Assembly (NCBI RefSeq): GCF_014235845.1 | Contig: NZ_JACJUQ010000005.1 | Span: forward strand, 1 to 64,000 | DNA length: 64,000 nucleotides | Reading direction: 5' to 3' | Source: Pontivivens nitratireducens | GTDB lineage: Bacteria; Pseudomonadota; Alphaproteobacteria; Rhodobacterales; Rhodobacteraceae | Part shown: in pieces, positions 57,124-63,367 of the stretch | Position numbering within the stretch: position 1 is the first letter of the stretch | How the letters are laid out: every line of letters begins with the position of its first letter | Translations under genes and position numbers: made by a program | The notes under the pieces: model-generated | What the model saw: only the letters and a program-made list of their open reading frames with translations | Database searches by the model: none | Told to the model about the DNA's origin: nothing

Positions 57124-59802
57124 TCACTGCGCGGCTGCAACATCTTCATGTGCATTCAGGCTGATCTGGAAACTTGCACCCGGCCCCTTCGGAGAGAGAG
57201 TAAGATCACCGTCCAGATTGCGCATGATTTCCCTGCTGATCGGCAGGCCAAGCCCAGCACTGCCCGCAAGGGTCTGATGGCCGAGCCGGGTGAATTTCTC
57301 GAACACCTTTTCCTGATCCTCAGGCGCGATGCCGGGGCCGTTATCCGCGATGGTAATGGTTACTCTATGCTCGGTTTTCTTGACCTGCACGATGATCGCG
57401 GGGGGGCTGCCTTGCCCGTATTTCACCGCATTGCTCAACACATTTATCAGCACCTGCGCCAGCCTGTCGCGATCGGCTGAAACGGTAATGTCCTGTCCGG
57501 GCGCGTGGATCAGTTGCACTCCCGCCCGTCGCATCAAAGGTTCCGTCGCCGCCAGCGCCTGTTCTATCGTCGCGTTGAGCGAGACCGGAACCTGCACGAT
57601 CTGCGCCTGACCGTTTTCCAGCACCGAGACATCGAGGATTTCATCCAGCAGGCGCGTCAAACGCTGGCTTTCTTCGTGTATGATGGACACGAAGCGCCGA
57701 GCCTGATCCGGCTCCAGATCATCGCCGTCGCGCAGGATCTCCGCGAATGACCGCACGGAGGTCATCGGCGTGCGCAACTCGTGACTGACCTGGCTGAGGA
57801 AGGCGTCCTTCTGCTCCGCGATTTCGTGCAACTGCGCGTTCGCATGGCGAAGCTGGGATGCTGTCTCCTCCAACTCGCGGCTCTTTTCCTCGATCCGGTT
57901 GGAATATTCGATGATCTGGGCGGTTTCATCGGCCATGCGCATCAGTTCCGACACTGACACCGTACCGTGCCCCCCGATCTGGCTGACCATCGCATGAGCG
58001 GAGGCCGCGCCGATTGCGCCGGCCAGGGCGCGCTCCAACCTCTGCGTCAGGTCTGAGGAGGGGTCGGGCAGGCCGCTTGCCTTACCCTGCGCACGTGCCG
58101 TCTGCGTGAACATCCGCCACGCGGTTTCACGGCCGAGGATGCGTTGGGCAAGCTCGAACAAATCCTCGGATTTCGCGGTGCGTCGCAGGGCCATGCCGGG
58201 GCGGTCGGCGGTGCCGGTGAACACATCGACAAACAGTTTCGCCTGCAGTTGCTCCAGCGCGCCGGGCCGTGACAGCAGCGATACCACGACCAGCGCGCTG
58301 ACATTCACCGCCATCGACCACAGCGTCGCGTGGACGAGGGGATCTTCGAATTCAGAACCGAACAATCCTTGCGGCCGCAGCAGCTCCACACCCCATGGCC
58401 CGTTGGCGATCACTTCGGGTGACAGCAGGAACGTGCCGTCGAAACTGGGTATGAACAGTGCATAGGCCCAGACCCCGAAGCCCAGTATCACTGCTGTAAT
58501 CGCCCCGGTTCGCGTTGCACCGCGCCAGTACAATGCGCCGATGATGCTGGGAAACAACTGCGCCGCCCCCAAAAACGAGATCAATCCGATGGAGGCCAGC
58601 GAGGTGGAGCCGCCCGTGACCCGGAAATAGATATAGCCCAGCGCCAACACTCCGATGATGCTGGCGCGCCGTGACAGCAACAGCATTCCGCGCACATCGC
58701 CGCTTGCCGCCGTTGTATGTCGCGTGGATCGCAGCCAGAGCGGCATGATGATGTGGTTCGATACCATGGTGCTGAGCGCGATGGCCGCGACGATGACCAT
58801 GGACGTCGCGGCGGAAAACCCGCCCAGAAACGCCAGCAGCGCCAGTCCACCGTTCCCGGCGCCCAGCGGCACAGTCAGAACATAGATGTCCGGATTCGCA
58901 TCGGCGGGCAGTCCGGTCATGCCCATGATCGCGATGGGCATGACAAACAGGGACATCAGGAAGACATAGAAAGGAAATGCCCAACTGGCCGTTGCCAGAT
59001 GACGCTCATCCACATTCTCGACCACGGCGACCTGAAACATCCGGGGCAGGCAGATCACGGCGGTGGCGGACAGGAACAGCAGCGTGACCCATCGCGGACC
59101 GAAGACATCCGCGCTCAACAATTCGGGGTCGGGCAGCCGGGCAAAGATATCCGCCGGGCCATCAGCGATACCAAAGACCACGAACAGACCGACGGAGGTC
59201 AGCGCGACAAGTTTCACGACCGCCTCCACCGCGATGGCGGTCACGACGCCATAATGCTGTTCATTGGCATCGACATGCCGGGTGCCGAACAGGATGGTGA
59301 AGGCGGCCAAACCGCTCGCGATCCAGAACGCCGTCTGCGCGGGGCGCGTGCCAACATCCGAGAACAGCGTGAAGCTCAGACTCAACGATTGCAGTTGCAG
59401 CGCGATATAGGGGGTGGAGGCGAGCACGGCGATCAGCGTCACGACGACGCCGATGGACGTGCTCTTGCCATAGCGGGAGGACAGCAGATCCGCGACTGAG
59501 GTGATGCGTTGTTCCCGCGAAATTCGCACCAGTTTGCGCAGGATCAGCCACCAGCCCAGAAATGTCAGCGTCGGGCCCAGATAGATCGTCACGAACTCCA
59601 TGCCGCTGCGCGCGGCCGAGCCGACCGCCCCGTAATAGGTCCAGGTCGTGCAATAGACCGACAGCGACAGGGTGTAGACCCAGGGCGATCTGATCCAACC
59701 GAACTGACCACGCTTCGCCCGTTGTTCCGCCCAGAATGCGATGCAGAACAACAGGGTGACGTACAATAGGCACGTGATGACGATCGTGTTCCAACTGGGC
59801 AT
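57124..59802 (-). CDS. Sodium:solute symporter-histidine kinase fusion (CrbS/CbrA-like)
   Basis: An 892-residue sensor. Residues about 1-500 are a 13-segment SSS (SLC5) transporter-like domain (VYTLSLSVYCTTWTYYGAVG, SAATSMVIVAAIALSTMVSNH). A linker and coiled coil (about 610-665) lead to the DHp domain with VSHELRTP (H674), the N box LINVLSNAVKYG, the G1 box DNGPGIAPEDQEKVFEKF and G2 SAGLGLPI. CrbS and CbrA of this type sense acetate or other carbon acids. I chose the ATG at 59802 (MPSWNTIV); the frame upstream overlaps the next gene. It lacks a receiver domain; a lone receiver is encoded upstream. Confidence 0.92.
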   Translation of the reverse strand: MPSWNTIVITCLLYVTLLFCIAFWAEQRAKRGQFGWIRSPWVYTLSLSVYCTTWTYYGAVGSAARSGMEFVTIYLGPTLTFLGWWLILRKLVRISREQRITSVADLLSSRYGKSTSIGVVVTLIAVLASTPYIALQLQSLSLSFTLFSDVGTRPAQTAFWIASGLAAFTILFGTRHVDANEQHYGVVTAIAVEAVVKLVALTSVGLFVVFGIADGPADIFARLPDPELLSADVFGPRWVTLLFLSATAVICLPRMFQVAVVENVDERHLATASWAFPFYVFLMSLFVMPIAIMGMTGLPADANPDIYVLTVPLGAGNGGLALLAFLGGFSAATSMVIVAAIALSTMVSNHIIMPLWLRSTRHTTAASGDVRGMLLLSRRASIIGVLALGYIYFRVTGGSTSLASIGLISFLGAAQLFPSIIGALYWRGATRTGAITAVILGFGVWAYALFIPSFDGTFLLSPEVIANGPWGVELLRPQGLFGSEFEDPLVHATLWSMAVNVSALVVVSLLSRPGALEQLQAKLFVDVFTGTADRPGMALRRTAKSEDLFELAQRILGRETAWRMFTQTARAQGKASGLPDPSSDLTQRLERALAGAIGAASAHAMVSQIGGHGTVSVSELMRMADETAQIIEYSNRIEEKSRELEETASQLRHANAQLHEIAEQKDAFLSQVSHELRTPMTSVRSFAEILRDGDDLEPDQARRFVSIIHEESQRLTRLLDEILDVSVLENGQAQIVQVPVSLNATIEQALAATEPLMRRAGVQLIHAPGQDITVSADRDRLAQVLINVLSNAVKYGQGSPPAIIVQVKKTEHRVTITIADNGPGIAPEDQEKVFEKFTRLGHQTLAGSAGLGLPISREIMRNLDGDLTLSPKGPGASFQISLNAHEDVAAAQ

Positions 59803-59804
59803 GA

Positions 59805-60038
59805 TTATTCGTCGTCCGGGTGCGACAACAGGTGTGCCAACCGTCGGGCGATGGCAATCAGCGCCAGCCATTGGCCGAACAGCCATAGCACGATCAGCGG
59901 AATGCCGAATACCGTGACGGGGACGGCGAACAACCCGACGAAGGGCGGCAGGATCAACATCGCGGCGAAGATTGGCAGAATGACCGCTCCGTCATAGCGC
60001 CGCTTGCGCGCGCGAGGGATGTCCTCCGGCTGGCTCAC
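59805..60038 (-). CDS. Small membrane protein, symporter-subunit-like
   Basis: A 77-residue protein with a basic start (RARKRRYDG) and two membrane helices (AVILPIFAAMLILPPFVGLF, VFGIPLIVLWLFGQWLALIAIA). It resembles the small DUF3311/YhdT-like partners encoded beside sodium:solute symporters. Two bases separate its stop from the symporter-kinase start, and its ATG overlaps the receiver stop (ATGA). It may help the sensor's transport domain fold or function. Confidence 0.7.
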   Translation of the reverse strand: MSQPEDIPRARKRRYDGAVILPIFAAMLILPPFVGLFAVPVTVFGIPLIVLWLFGQWLALIAIARRLAHLLSHPDDE

Positions 60039-60409
60039 GGATCCAGTCCGGTAAGCCGGCGTGCCTCCGCGATGATGGCGGCGTTCGAGAACGGCTTGGT
60101 CATGAACAGATCGGCACCCAGTTGTTCTGCCTGATCGCGGTCACGGGTCTGGCCCTTGGCTGTCAGCATCATAACCGGGGTCGCGCTCAGCCCGTCATGG
60201 GCGCGCAGATCGCGCAGCACGTCGAAGCCCGAAAGGTTGGGAAGCATCACGTCCAGTATCATCAGATCGGGTGAAACACGCTCCGCCTCACCCATGGCGC
60301 GGGCGCCGTCGGGCATGGTGGAAACCTCGAACCCGTCGCGGCGCAGCAGGAACGCCAGCGATTCCATGATATTAGCCTCATCCTCGACGATCAGAATGCG
60401 TTTGGGCAT
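60035..60409 (-). CDS. Single-domain response regulator (receiver only)
   Basis: A 124-residue CheY-like receiver with the acidic pocket VEDE, phospho-acceptor D53 in LMILDVMLP, the conserved threonine region MMLTAKG and lysine in FMTKPFS. It has no output domain. It is the first gene of a three-gene operon with the small membrane protein and the symporter-kinase, so the kinase should phosphorylate it. Output must go through another protein. GGAGGG and AAGGAG precede the ATG. Confidence 0.93.
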   Translation of the reverse strand: MPKRILIVEDEANIMESLAFLLRRDGFEVSTMPDGARAMGEAERVSPDLMILDVMLPNLSGFDVLRDLRAHDGLSATPVMMLTAKGQTRDRDQAEQLGADLFMTKPFSNAAIIAEARRLTGLDP

Positions 60410-60501: not shown

Positions 60502-61791
60502 TCAAAGCTGATGCGCGATCACAGGCTCCGCGATGCGGGCGGTACAGCGCGTTCGGGAGCAGACCCGGCATCCCGGCCCTGCGGCGACGGTGCCCGGATC
60601 GGTGGGCGCAAACAGATGTCGCGCGGAATCGGGAACGATCAGCATCGTGGCGGACGGGCGCCCGCGTTCGCCCATACGGTGGGGCGCGTCTATTTCGGCG
60701 GTGCAGATCGCCAACGTGCTCTGACCGCCGGGCATCTGAACATCGACAGGCCAGGTCGTGCCGGGTTGCCAGAGCGCGTCGAAGACCGGTAGCAGCGGAC
60801 AGGCCGCCATCTGACGTGAGATCGGCCAGTCGGGCAGGGGACGACGCAGCAATATCTGGCCCGCGCCGTTGATCGCGATCAGTCCCAACGGCGCCTGCCC
60901 CTGGCGGAAGGCCAGCCTGCGCATCAGTTGCGCGACACCAACGCCCAGCTTACGCGCCGCCACAGTCAAGTCGAGCGGCGTGGCAAGCAGATCGTCGAGC
61001 ACCGCCTCCGGAACAGCTTCGGCATCGTTTCGCCATCGGGTCAGCCAGTGGCGCAGTTCGGCACGCGCGGCGGCCCCCTTTGGCAGCAACGTGTCCAGCA
61101 ATGGCTCCACCTCACCGCCATGCTCCAACTGTGTGAAGCTGTAGCCCGCCGTTTCTAGGATGCGGGCGACCTCTTCTTCGGGTGTCGCCGGGGGGCGGTC
61201 GGAGGAGGCAGTGCGGTCGAAGTAATCTGTCAGGGCACCGGCAACCTCGCTCAATCGCTGGCTCTCGTCATGGATGGCACGGGTGAACCGCTGGCGCTGT
61301 GGCGCTTCTATGTCGTCCACCGTGGCCAGGATCGACGCGGTGGAGCGGATCGCGGTGATGGTGGTCAGCATCTCATGCATGTCCGATTGCAGCACCGGGT
61401 CATGGGTCAGCCGATCACCCAGCGCCTCGACCGTGGTGCGCAATTCACGGTTCGTCTGATCGAGCGTGGAAATCATGCGGGCCCAGCCGGGATAGCGACC
61501 GACGAATTCCTCAATCTGATGCGTCTCGGGGTCATGGACCGGCAGATCGGCGGCAGCCTCGCGCAGGGCCGCGACCAGGCCGAGGGTCGCTTGTTCGCCC
61601 AGTGCGGAGGGCGGTACATCCAGCGCCCGCGCCAGCGCCAAAAGCACCTTTCCCGCGACCGGGCGGCGGTTGTGCTCGATAAGATTGAGGTAGGACGGCG
61701 AAATTCCGGCCTCTCGCGCCAAGGCGGTCTGTGACAGGCCAAGGACGAGCCGACGCTCGCGAATCCGCAGCCCTGCGAACGACCGCACCAT
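60502..61791 (-). CDS. ScfR-family XRE regulator with a histidine-kinase DHp-like insert
   Basis: A 429-residue regulator. An XRE helix-turn-helix (about 5-62, LGLSQTALAREAGISPSYLNLIEHNRRPV) and a C-terminal ligand-type domain ending CRVCSRTRC place it in the short-chain fatty acyl-CoA regulator (ScfR; RamB, PccR) family. Between them, after a coiled coil (about 105-130), residues 136-192 match the DHp helices of the neighbouring kinase: H139 lines up with the kinase phospho-histidine, and 22 of 42 residues agree without gaps (shared blocks include HE, RS-A-IL and IH-ESQRL). It is divergent from a branched-chain-class ABC transporter. Confidence 0.85.
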   Translation of the reverse strand: MVRSFAGLRIRERRLVLGLSQTALAREAGISPSYLNLIEHNRRPVAGKVLLALARALDVPPSALGEQATLGLVAALREAAADLPVHDPETHQIEEFVGRYPGWARMISTLDQTNRELRTTVEALGDRLTHDPVLQSDMHEMLTTITAIRSTASILATVDDIEAPQRQRFTRAIHDESQRLSEVAGALTDYFDRTASSDRPPATPEEEVARILETAGYSFTQLEHGGEVEPLLDTLLPKGAAARAELRHWLTRWRNDAEAVPEAVLDDLLATPLDLTVAARKLGVGVAQLMRRLAFRQGQAPLGLIAINGAGQILLRRPLPDWPISRQMAACPLLPVFDALWQPGTTWPVDVQMPGGQSTLAICTAEIDAPHRMGERGRPSATMLIVPDSARHLFAPTDPGTVAAGPGCRVCSRTRCTARIAEPVIAHQL

Positions 61792-61801
61792 GGGGAAAAT
61801 C

Positions 61802-61894
61802 CTTTTGCAAAAGCGCCTTACCGCGCCGCAATGTAATGTTCTTCACAGATCGACACATTGCAACTGTAAATATTTTACAAAATTAATATGCAAA
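61802..61894. promoter_or_regulatory. Divergent control region with TTTGCAAA-like sites
   Basis: Directly upstream of the regulator start is the palindrome CTTTTGCAAAAG (61802-61813). Further on lie ATTGCAAC (61857-61864), the palindrome TGTAAA-TAT-TTTACA (61865-61879) and TATGCAAA (61887-61894). ScfR-family PccR of Rhodobacter sphaeroides is known to bind paired TTTGCAAA sites, so these are good candidate operators for both the regulator and the transporter. Exact pairing is not certain. Confidence 0.6.
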
Positions 61895-62023
61895 AGCAAC
61901 AACTTGTTGATTTGTTTACACCGACCTCGAATAGTGACGTCAGGTCAGAAATGGCCTGCCTGTGCCGTTCAGTCGCATCAAGAACGACCGACGCAGGCGA
62001 TCCGACACAAAGGGAGGAACCTC

Positions 62024-63367
62024 ATGTCGAAATCGAACTTCAGCCGTCGCGGTGTGCTCAAGACTGGCGCGGCCTTTGGCGGCGTTCTCGCAGCGCCGAC
62101 ATTCTTCACGTCCGCGGCCAACGCGTTCACCAACGCGCCGGGCGCGTCTTCCGTGACATTCGGCTTCAACGTGCCGCAGTCCGGCGCCTATGCCGACGAA
62201 GGTGCGGACGAACTGCGCGCATACCAACTGGCCGTGAAGCACCTGAACGGTGAGGGTGACGGCGGAATGCTCAACACCTTCTCGTCACGTGCGCTGGACG
62301 GCACCGGCATTCTGGGTCGCAAGGTCGAGTATGTTACGGGCGACACGCAGACCAAATCCGACGCTGCGCGTGCCTCTGCCCGCTCGATGATTGAGCAGGA
62401 CGGCGCAATCATGATCACCGGTGGTTCGTCCTCGGGCGTGGCCGTGGCGGTTCAGGGTCTGTGCCAGGAAGCTGGCGTGATCTTCATGGCGGGTCTGACC
62501 CACTCGAACGACACGACCGGCAAGGACAAGAAGGCGAACGGCTTCCGTCACTTCTTCAACGCCTACATGTCTGCGGCTGCCCTGGCACCCGTGCTGTCGG
62601 CCAACTATGGCAATGACCGCAAGGCATATCACCTGACGGCAGATTACACCTGGGGCTGGACGCAGGAAGAATCCATCGCGGCCGCGACCGAAAATCTGGG
62701 CTGGGAGACAATCAACAAGGTGCGCACCCCGCTGGGCGCCGGCGATTTCTCGCAGTACATCACGCCGATCCTGAACTCCGGTGCCGATACGCTGATCCTG
62801 AACCACTATGGCAATGACATGGTGAACTCGCTGACGCAGGCGGTTCAGTTCGGTCTGCGCGACCGTCAGGTCAACGGCAAGGACTTCCAGATCGTCGTTC
62901 CCCTCTACTCCCGCCTGATGGCGCAGGGTGCGGGCGAAAACGTGAAGGGCATCTTCGGCTCCACCAACTGGCACTGGTCGCTTCAGGATGAGGCTTCGCA
63001 GGCCTTTGTGCGCGCGTTCGGTCAGGAATACGGCTTCCCGCCGTCCCAGGCTGCGCATACCTGCTACGTGCAGACGCTGCTCTATGCGGATGCTGTGCAG
63101 CGCGGTGGCGACTTCAACCCGTGCGCGGTGGCCGAAGCCCTCGAAGGGTTCGAGTTCGACGGTATGGGCAACGGGCCGACCCTGTATCGTGCCGCCGATC
63201 ACCAGTGCTTCAAGGACGTTCTGGTGGTGAAGGGCAAGGACAACCCCTCCAACCAGTTCGACCTTCTGGAAGTGGTGGATGTCACCCCGGCCGATCAGGT
63301 TACCTATGCACCCGATCACCCCATGTTCGCCGGTGGTGAGCTGGGTGAGTGCAACCCGGGCGCGTAA
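62024..63367 (+). CDS. ABC transporter substrate-binding protein, branched-chain amino acid (HAAT) class
   Basis: A 447-residue type I binding protein with a twin-arginine signal (SRRGVLKTGAAFGGVLAAP). Mature motifs include TFGFNVPQSGAYADEGADEL, ILGRKVEYVTGD and MITGGSSSGVAVAV. It is longer than LivJ-type proteins, close to UrtA-like members. Substrate is not evident; amides, urea or branched-chain or short-chain acids are candidates. AGGGAGGA lies upstream of the ATG. It is divergent from the ScfR regulator and is followed by a hairpin and a LivH-like permease gene. Confidence 0.86.
   Translation: MSKSNFSRRGVLKTGAAFGGVLAAPTFFTSAANAFTNAPGASSVTFGFNVPQSGAYADEGADELRAYQLAVKHLNGEGDGGMLNTFSSRALDGTGILGRKVEYVTGDTQTKSDAARASARSMIEQDGAIMITGGSSSGVAVAVQGLCQEAGVIFMAGLTHSNDTTGKDKKANGFRHFFNAYMSAAALAPVLSANYGNDRKAYHLTADYTWGWTQEESIAAATENLGWETINKVRTPLGAGDFSQYITPILNSGADTLILNHYGNDMVNSLTQAVQFGLRDRQVNGKDFQIVVPLYSRLMAQGAGENVKGIFGSTNWHWSLQDEASQAFVRAFGQEYGFPPSQAAHTCYVQTLLYADAVQRGGDFNPCAVAEALEGFEFDGMGNGPTLYRAADHQCFKDVLVVKGKDNPSNQFDLLEVVDVTPADQVTYAPDHPMFAGGELGECNPGA

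Follow-up and report, generated by a model that had tools for sequence, protein, structure and literature searches.

Receiver-only proteins often have no known output, and a locus of Pontivivens nitratireducens raises the question of where one such receiver, encoded together with a membrane histidine kinase, delivers its signal. The locus lies in a stretch of 64,000 nucleotides (contig NZ_JACJUQ010000005.1), which is referred to below as the window. Beside the receiver, a DNA-binding regulator of the ScfR family is encoded. According to the original prediction, this regulator carries a segment resembling the DHp helices of the kinase, phospho-histidine included, and its DNA binding is set by docking or phosphotransfer with the receiver or by pairing with the kinase. 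Our analysis partly supports this interpretation. Linkage, co-occurrence and a conserved module suggest how the membrane sensor may reach its genes, the candidate output of the lone receiver being a DNA-binding regulator whose module is related to that part of the kinase on which receivers dock.

The regulator and its middle segment

The regulator and its parts were located in the window as follows:

60502..61791, minus strand: ScfR-type regulator, 429 aa, with XRE helix-turn-helix, DHp-like module and ScfR C-terminal domain (ORF and Pfam)
61603..61764, minus strand: helix-turn-helix, residues 10-63 (Pfam HTH_3)
61402..61515, minus strand: helical lead-in, residues 93-130 (AlphaFold2 helix 101-130; segment alignment)
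61198..61401, minus strand: DHp-like hairpin, residues ~131-198 (hhalign, AlphaFold2 helices, HisKA matches)
61375..61377, minus strand: codon of H139, the position of the kinase phospho-histidine
60511..60894, minus strand: ScfR C-terminal domain, residues 300-427, with C331, C408, C411 and C416 (PF09856)

As in other ScfRs (RamB, PccR and MccR/PrpR), the protein has an N-terminal XRE helix-turn-helix (HTH_3 at residues 10-63, E 4.3e-13) and a C-terminal PF09856 domain (6.9e-12, 45.9 bits against a cut-off of 24), the latter being found also in 29 of 29 relatives of the regulator at E values up to 1. It further shares with them the PrpR-like fold, since its AlphaFold2 model (mean pLDDT 80.7, pTM 0.54) is structurally similar over residues 202-409 to M. 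tuberculosis PrpR with a Z of 18.4, and the four cysteines, which across 222 distinct regulators are kept in 220 (C331), 220 (C408), 220 (C411) and 219 (C416) proteins. A 4Fe-4S cluster is known in PrpR and RamB according to the accessible text of PMC10370305, and by its sequence the regulator has the four conserved cysteines expected for the cluster of an ScfR. The RamB equivalog model NF038139 (NCBIfam) gave only 91.1 bits, far under its cut-off of 700, and a Pfam scan at E values up to 10 found no HATPase_c in the regulator. We consider that the protein probably controls acetate metabolism.

What distinguishes this regulator from the ScfRs named above is the presence of a DHp-like hairpin at residues ~131-198. 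The module is missing from the only other ScfR found in the genome, which has an unrelated stretch in its place. No such module is mentioned in the accessible parts of PMC10370305 and PMC12632250, in line with the statement of the original prediction that RamB and PccR are not known to be described with one, and a literature search that covered partial texts returned no description of a DHp within an ScfR. A member of the ScfR network, Pden_1785, is encoded by a gene clustered with a two-component system, as stated in the accessible part of PMC10370305.

The predicted placement of the segment at residues 136-192 (61386-61216, minus strand) was borne out, and its alignment with the kinase could be reproduced: starting at H139 in the regulator and at the phospho-histidine in the kinase, a gap-free alignment extends over 42 residues, of which 22 are identical. 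Only the numbering on the kinase side differs, the phospho-histidine being H702 of the 920-aa ORF, whereas the earlier count had begun at a later start. Whole-protein blastp between regulator and kinase gave an E value of 4e-12 (4.6e-7 with low-complexity filtering), and their local score of 153 was reached by none of 300 shuffles of the regulator, the maximum among these being 63. The profile search for HisKA that had been proposed did find similarity, but below the Pfam cut-off: the whole regulator matched at residues 139-187 with E 0.0016 and 18.9 bits, and the isolated window segment with 6e-5 and 23.4 bits, both under the gathering score of 26.9 bits, so that the segment is classed here as HisKA-related or DHp-like, not as HisKA. 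HisKA was the commonest match of the isolated segments of 35 members (27/35 at E up to 1, best 2.3e-6), the next-commonest family matching 6/35, and was also found in 9 of 29 whole-length relatives. The Hpt domain PF01627 matched one of the 35 segments, at E 0.014, and did not match that of the window. Finally, hhalign supported the likeness to DHp: a profile of 35 diverse segment relatives and a profile of 23 DHp segments of the symporter-kinase aligned over 75 columns with an E value of 1.8e-17, a probability of 98.9 and the histidines in register, and other member sets gave an E value of 2.8e-9.

In the AlphaFold2 model of the regulator, helices are predicted at residues 101-130, 132-157 and 163-198. 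The last two make up a two-helix hairpin with the histidine in its first helix, as expected of a DHp fold, and the coiled coil that had been proposed ahead of the segment appears in the model as the long helix 101-130. When the segment was modelled alone (pLDDT 78.3), its 11 best Foldseek matches were HK853 entries, with probabilities of 0.94-0.99 and weak E values of 0.07-0.23; we take PDB 2c2a and 3dge to be HK853. VIA-align placed residues 34-104 of the segment model on HK853 249-318 with a Z of 9.8, and by the range ends of this alignment H139 falls near H260. As the FAT domain of FAK, a helical hairpin unrelated to kinases, scored equally well (VIA-align Z 9.9), the fold alone would not decide DHp identity. 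When the sequences of the PDB were searched with the profile of the segment, histidine kinases were reached at E values of 1.3-1.7 only. Judged by the sequence and profile comparisons, the middle part of the regulator is a DHp-like hairpin homologous to the DHp of the symporter-kinase.

The identity between the two proteins of the window (52% over the 42 residues) is unusual when compared with the mean of 30% for 68 regulator/kinase pairs, and the window regulator segment has a mean identity of 34% to foreign kinases. A recent exchange between the two window segments (61198-61401 and 57610-57921) or a local constraint may possibly lie behind the 52% identity.

Receiver, kinase and their occurrence with the regulator

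The following neighbours of the regulator are encoded on the same strand:

60035..60409, minus strand: lone receiver, 124 aa, without output domain (Response_reg 3.9e-27)
59805..60038, minus strand: small hydrophobic protein, 77 aa, between receiver and kinase (ORF)
57124..59886, minus strand: symporter-type histidine kinase, 920-aa ORF (HisKA and HATPase_c, Pfam)
57610..57921, minus strand: kinase DHp region, with the phospho-histidine codon at 57781-57783

A lone receiver is therefore encoded between regulator and kinase, as had been claimed. The kinase is labelled as a symporter type because its membrane half (residues 36-482) matches PDB 10ed, which is named a histidine kinase, with an E value of 2.8e-73, and because a Paracoccus relative is annotated as a sodium:solute symporter; Pfam SSF gave no match to it at E values up to 10. 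For the 77-aa protein, Pfam returned no family above cut-off and NCBIfam no match at E values up to 1. Four Paracoccus plasmid records contain a relative with 36% identity. In the one examined, that of Paracoccus ferrooxidans, the genes follow the same order as in the window, and a small hypothetical gene is annotated at the place of the 77-aa protein.

D10, E11 and D53 are present throughout the 203 aligned receivers, none of which has an output domain or more than 60 aa past the receiver. A same-strand receiver is present within 1.5 kb of 198 of the 222 regulators (by locus set 27/29, 75/80, 26/40 and 77/80, the set of 40 including one family genome, L212, that is unlinked to a receiver). 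When kinase neighbourhoods were fetched for mostly unlinked regulators, kinase and receiver were found together in 17 of 20; at L311 the receiver is present with its kinase in an adjoining slice (L201), and the neighbourhood of L309 stops at a contig end. The kinase was present in all 17 genomes checked directly for it. In the last of the 20 neighbourhoods, L310 (G277), a histidine-bearing regulator adjoins the kinase, with no receiver match within 11.5 kb.

The regulator type is not rare in the family of the window, where a relative was detected in 172 of 198 sampled genomes (E 1e-20). Regulators of the DHp type that were examined came from about 130 of these 172 genomes (the window, 29 relatives, 80 regions from 79 genomes and 21 weaker matches). 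Across Alphaproteobacteria, the genes are found repeatedly in the order regulator, output-less receiver, symporter-kinase. Among 385 sampled genomes of the class, the regulator was found in 45 and the kinase, at E 1e-30, in 53: both were present in 44, the kinase only in nine, the regulator only in one and neither in 331. The lone regulator-only genome is 68% complete, and the regulator there is a profile match. With 12 or fewer candidates scored per genome, each of the 42 class genomes with two segment-profile matches had the regulator together with a single kinase frame, 894-1041 aa in length. In the phylum sample of 398 genomes, no recognisable regulator was found outside Alphaproteobacteria, the matches outside the class being kinase-length frames or weaker ones of ~470-770 aa. 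Twenty of these weaker, shorter frames (18 from outside the class) were examined as possible regulators and rejected, all of them matching the kinase with E values of 3e-16 to 4e-26 and matching the regulator profile solely at the DHp part and its surroundings. Likewise, a supposed fusion of the regulator (a 963-aa frame, L355) was merely an upstream open frame. One genome (G111) has two regulator copies, L260 and L261, the latter without a receiver match in the stretch fetched, and the regulator locus L061 (JAFKDC010000037.1), titled Enemella evansiae, duplicates L021 of the window's family, so that the record looks mislabelled.

In genomes without a regulator match, a receiver (>150 bits) was detected in 18 of 20 kinase neighbourhoods. 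The receiver therefore does not exist only for the regulator, and kinase plus receiver form a wider unit, to which Alphaproteobacteria seem to have added the DHp-bearing ScfR. In several genomes that have the kinase and no regulator match, a protein of ~700 aa occurs, encoded between receiver and kinase (L322 908-3103, L323 7710-9842, L316 7936-10083). Inspected by eye (L322 and L316 over their full length, L323 in part), it shows a region resembling a sensor, a degenerate stretch of kinase character that lacks the histidine, and an end like that of a 3'-5' exonuclease; it is another possible partner of the same receiver.

Conservation of H139 and possible roles of the module

A histidine occupies position 139 in 214 of the 222 distinct regulators (108/109 in the window's family, 32/39 in other alphaproteobacterial families and 74/74 among named regulators), figures that depend on how each set was gathered: the 109 family members mainly with the whole window protein, the 39 others with a segment profile that contains the histidine, and the 80 named loci with a pair of patterns, one of them terminating in the histidine. 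The family and other-family sets, and the weaker matches mentioned below, are the less biased ones. The family genome L212 (G845) had been fetched with the other-family set, and if it is counted there the figures become 107/108 and 33/40. Six duplicate loci were removed, and the removal of eight more rows reduced 230 to 222 distinct proteins. The histidine was also found in 20 of 21 further, weaker family matches (one protein from two loci being counted once), and it was invariant in a set of 104 distinct regulators, most of which came from a pattern scan biased to the histidine. H139 is not the most conserved site, as it is exceeded by I154, F169 and L180, invariant in 222/222, and by D131, kept in 220/222.

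Position H+4 is Ser, Thr or Asn in 218 of the 222 regulators, and an acidic residue occupies H+1 in 170 of 183 family-type proteins (named and family sets) versus 3 of 39 others. According to the accessible part of PMC3510030, the acid at H+1 serves kinase activity in HisKA kinases, and Thr or Asn at H+4 serves phosphatase activity. Together with the lack of a catalytic domain, the pattern in the regulators is consistent with a DHp that serves as phospho-acceptor or phosphatase, and not with a kinase. As H+4 is retained in seven of the eight regulators that lack the histidine, it may be structural.

These eight regulators have Gln (L199, L200), Phe (L205, L206, L207, L209) or Tyr (L208, L287) at the position of H139, and they require at least three changes on a tree of 80 rows (the 40 of the class set, 10 selected from the family, among them the window, and 30 taken at random). 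We read the three changes as losses, their direction being left unfixed by the tree alone. Two of the three (L199/L200 and L205-L209) occurred in regulators away from a receiver. Over the 222 proteins, 197 receiver-linked regulators have the histidine and one lacks it, compared with 17 and seven, respectively, of the unlinked ones, some of which count as unlinked because a contig end or a short flank truncates the locus (L033, L025); the association of histidine loss with unlinking has a Fisher p of 5e-7, uncorrected for kinship. Modules with neither the histidine nor an adjacent receiver, which according to the original prediction would speak against it, are thus confined to seven of 222 regulators. 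Two family regulators, L287 and L352 (the latter one of the 21 weaker matches and outside the tree), have Tyr instead of H139 and yet lie beside a receiver.

We regard the following scheme as the best explanation for the whole, and as fairly probable. A one-component ScfR would have acquired a DHp hairpin related to HisKA where ScfRs have their usual mid-section; the symporter-kinase would phosphorylate the output-less receiver, and the phosphorylated receiver would then dock on the DHp of the regulator as it would on that of the kinase, thereby setting DNA binding by the regulator at the promoter of a divergent transporter / acetate-CoA ligase operon (see below). The docking step itself is, in our judgement, likely, slightly more so than the scheme as a whole. 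Docking may in addition hand the phosphoryl group to H139, in a His-Asp-His relay that would end on the transcription factor, and phosphorylation of H139 is something we propose tentatively. By analogy with PrpR and RamB, the ScfR C-terminal domain may add an internal acyl-CoA signal. An integration on one regulator of such a relay, starting from a symporter-kinase that senses outside acetate or a related acid, with the reading of internal acyl-CoA is conceivable, and we put it forward with a little more reserve than the phosphorylation of H139. In a covariation analysis of 164 triples of regulator, receiver and kinase DHp (Neff 144), phylogeny was dominant and the top pairs tracked the split between families; the kinase-receiver positive control did not recover the known interface.

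DHp domains dimerise, and the segment could instead be a mere dimerisation hairpin co-opted from the kinase, its histidine being structural. Such a role would agree with the conservation of I154, F169, L180 and D131 beyond that of H139, and with a hypothetical scheme that draws RamB as tetrameric (PMC10370305, accessible part); however, it would not account for the position of seven of the eight His-less regulators away from a receiver, nor for the presence of the kinase in 44 of the 45 class genomes with the regulator, and we consider it unlikely. To the same degree improbable is a function as phosphatase or sink, by which the DHp would dephosphorylate the receiver via Ser or Thr at H+4, with H139 assisting, so that the regulator would limit signalling by the receiver instead of reading it. 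The dependence of HisKA phosphatase activity on H+4 (PMC3510030, accessible part), the preference for Ser, Thr or Asn at this position and the loss of the H+1 acid in most proteins outside the family all fit this function, but the persistence of H+4 in His-less members does not, and the output-less receiver would be left without an output in the same operon.

Pairing of the regulator's DHp with that of the kinase, which would tether the regulator to the membrane or alter the kinase, seems to us very unlikely. The second segment-profile match was the kinase frame in all 42 two-match genomes, and the two segments of the window share 22 of 42 residues, as pairing might lead one to expect; on average, however, own regulator/kinase pairs are no more alike than foreign ones (mean identity 29.7% versus 29.3%, n=68), which lends no support to pairing, and the core of a mixed dimer would presumably have to stay compatible across both proteins. 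Among docking, phosphotransfer and pairing with the kinase DHp, the three modes originally suggested, docking of the receiver is the best supported.

ChpT and Spo0B are DHp-type phosphotransfer proteins that have a phospho-acceptor histidine, lack kinase activity of their own and work with receivers. The DHp hairpin is common to them and to the regulator, but both of them stand alone and have a catalytic domain that is degenerate, whereas the hairpin of the regulator sits inside a transcription factor. The present receiver resembles McvR, a receiver-only protein that binds DNA-binding proteins, in being alone, and differs in that no DHp module is mentioned on the partners of McvR in the accessible text of PMC8995066. 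If the receiver does dock on the regulator, two-component and one-component control would be joined on one protein, and the DHp-bearing regulators would make a new ScfR subclass for family annotation.

Divergent operon and candidate operator

Upstream of the regulator, the window contains:

62024..63367, plus strand: UrtA-like substrate-binding protein, divergent, first gene of the transporter operon
61842..61881, no strand assigned: candidate operator, TTCACAGA (61842-61849) and TTTACAAA (61874-61881) in direct orientation, 32 bp apart

The divergent operon consists of the UrtA-like gene, which scores below the cut-off of the UrtA model, a UrtB-like gene, three further frames and the gene of the acetate-CoA ligase AcsA (1027 bits against a cut-off of 725), which lies outside the window (G000 C39, 67241-69184). 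Within the stretches covered, the UrtA-like gene was found in 68 and the ligase in 34 of the 80 named loci. In the 40 class-set stretches each of them was found twice, and as these stretches cover little upstream sequence the counts say little about other families.

The CrbS/CrbR acetate system (SLC5/STAC kinase), in which a LuxR-type regulator controls acs (PMC5715377), likewise combines a kinase of the symporter type with a gene for acetate-CoA ligase in the region. The two systems differ in that CrbR is a DNA-binding response regulator of the LuxR type, whereas here the receiver is output-less and DNA binding falls to a separate protein with the DHp-like hairpin; none of the 203 receivers has the output domain that a system of the CrbS/CrbR type would require. 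If our scheme is correct, it hints at a possible mode of control for acetate-CoA ligase in cases where the receiver beside the symporter-kinase is without a DNA-binding domain.

The box TTTACAAA was found by k-mer count and then scored on the same regions, those lying upstream of the regulator: 104 of the 182 family regions contain it (~4 expected), as do 23 of the 38 from other families (~1 expected). The direct 32-bp pair, with one mismatch allowed per box, was detected in 99 of the 182 family regions and in none of the shuffles; the first box of the window, TTCACAGA, carries two mismatches. According to PMC10370305, an ScfR site consists of two boxes that are nearly identical. From these sequence data we infer that the TTTACAAA pair is a putative operator, with the transporter / acetate-CoA ligase operon as its target.

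Another candidate for a shared operator was rejected. TTTGCAAA, which we take to be a RamB-like box, occurred in only 2 of the 182 family upstream regions, with 5.5 expected; one such box is present in the window, at 61804. The longest ORF of the UrtA-like gene (61790-63367) begins in intergenic sequence and overlaps the candidate operator, 62024 being its likely start.
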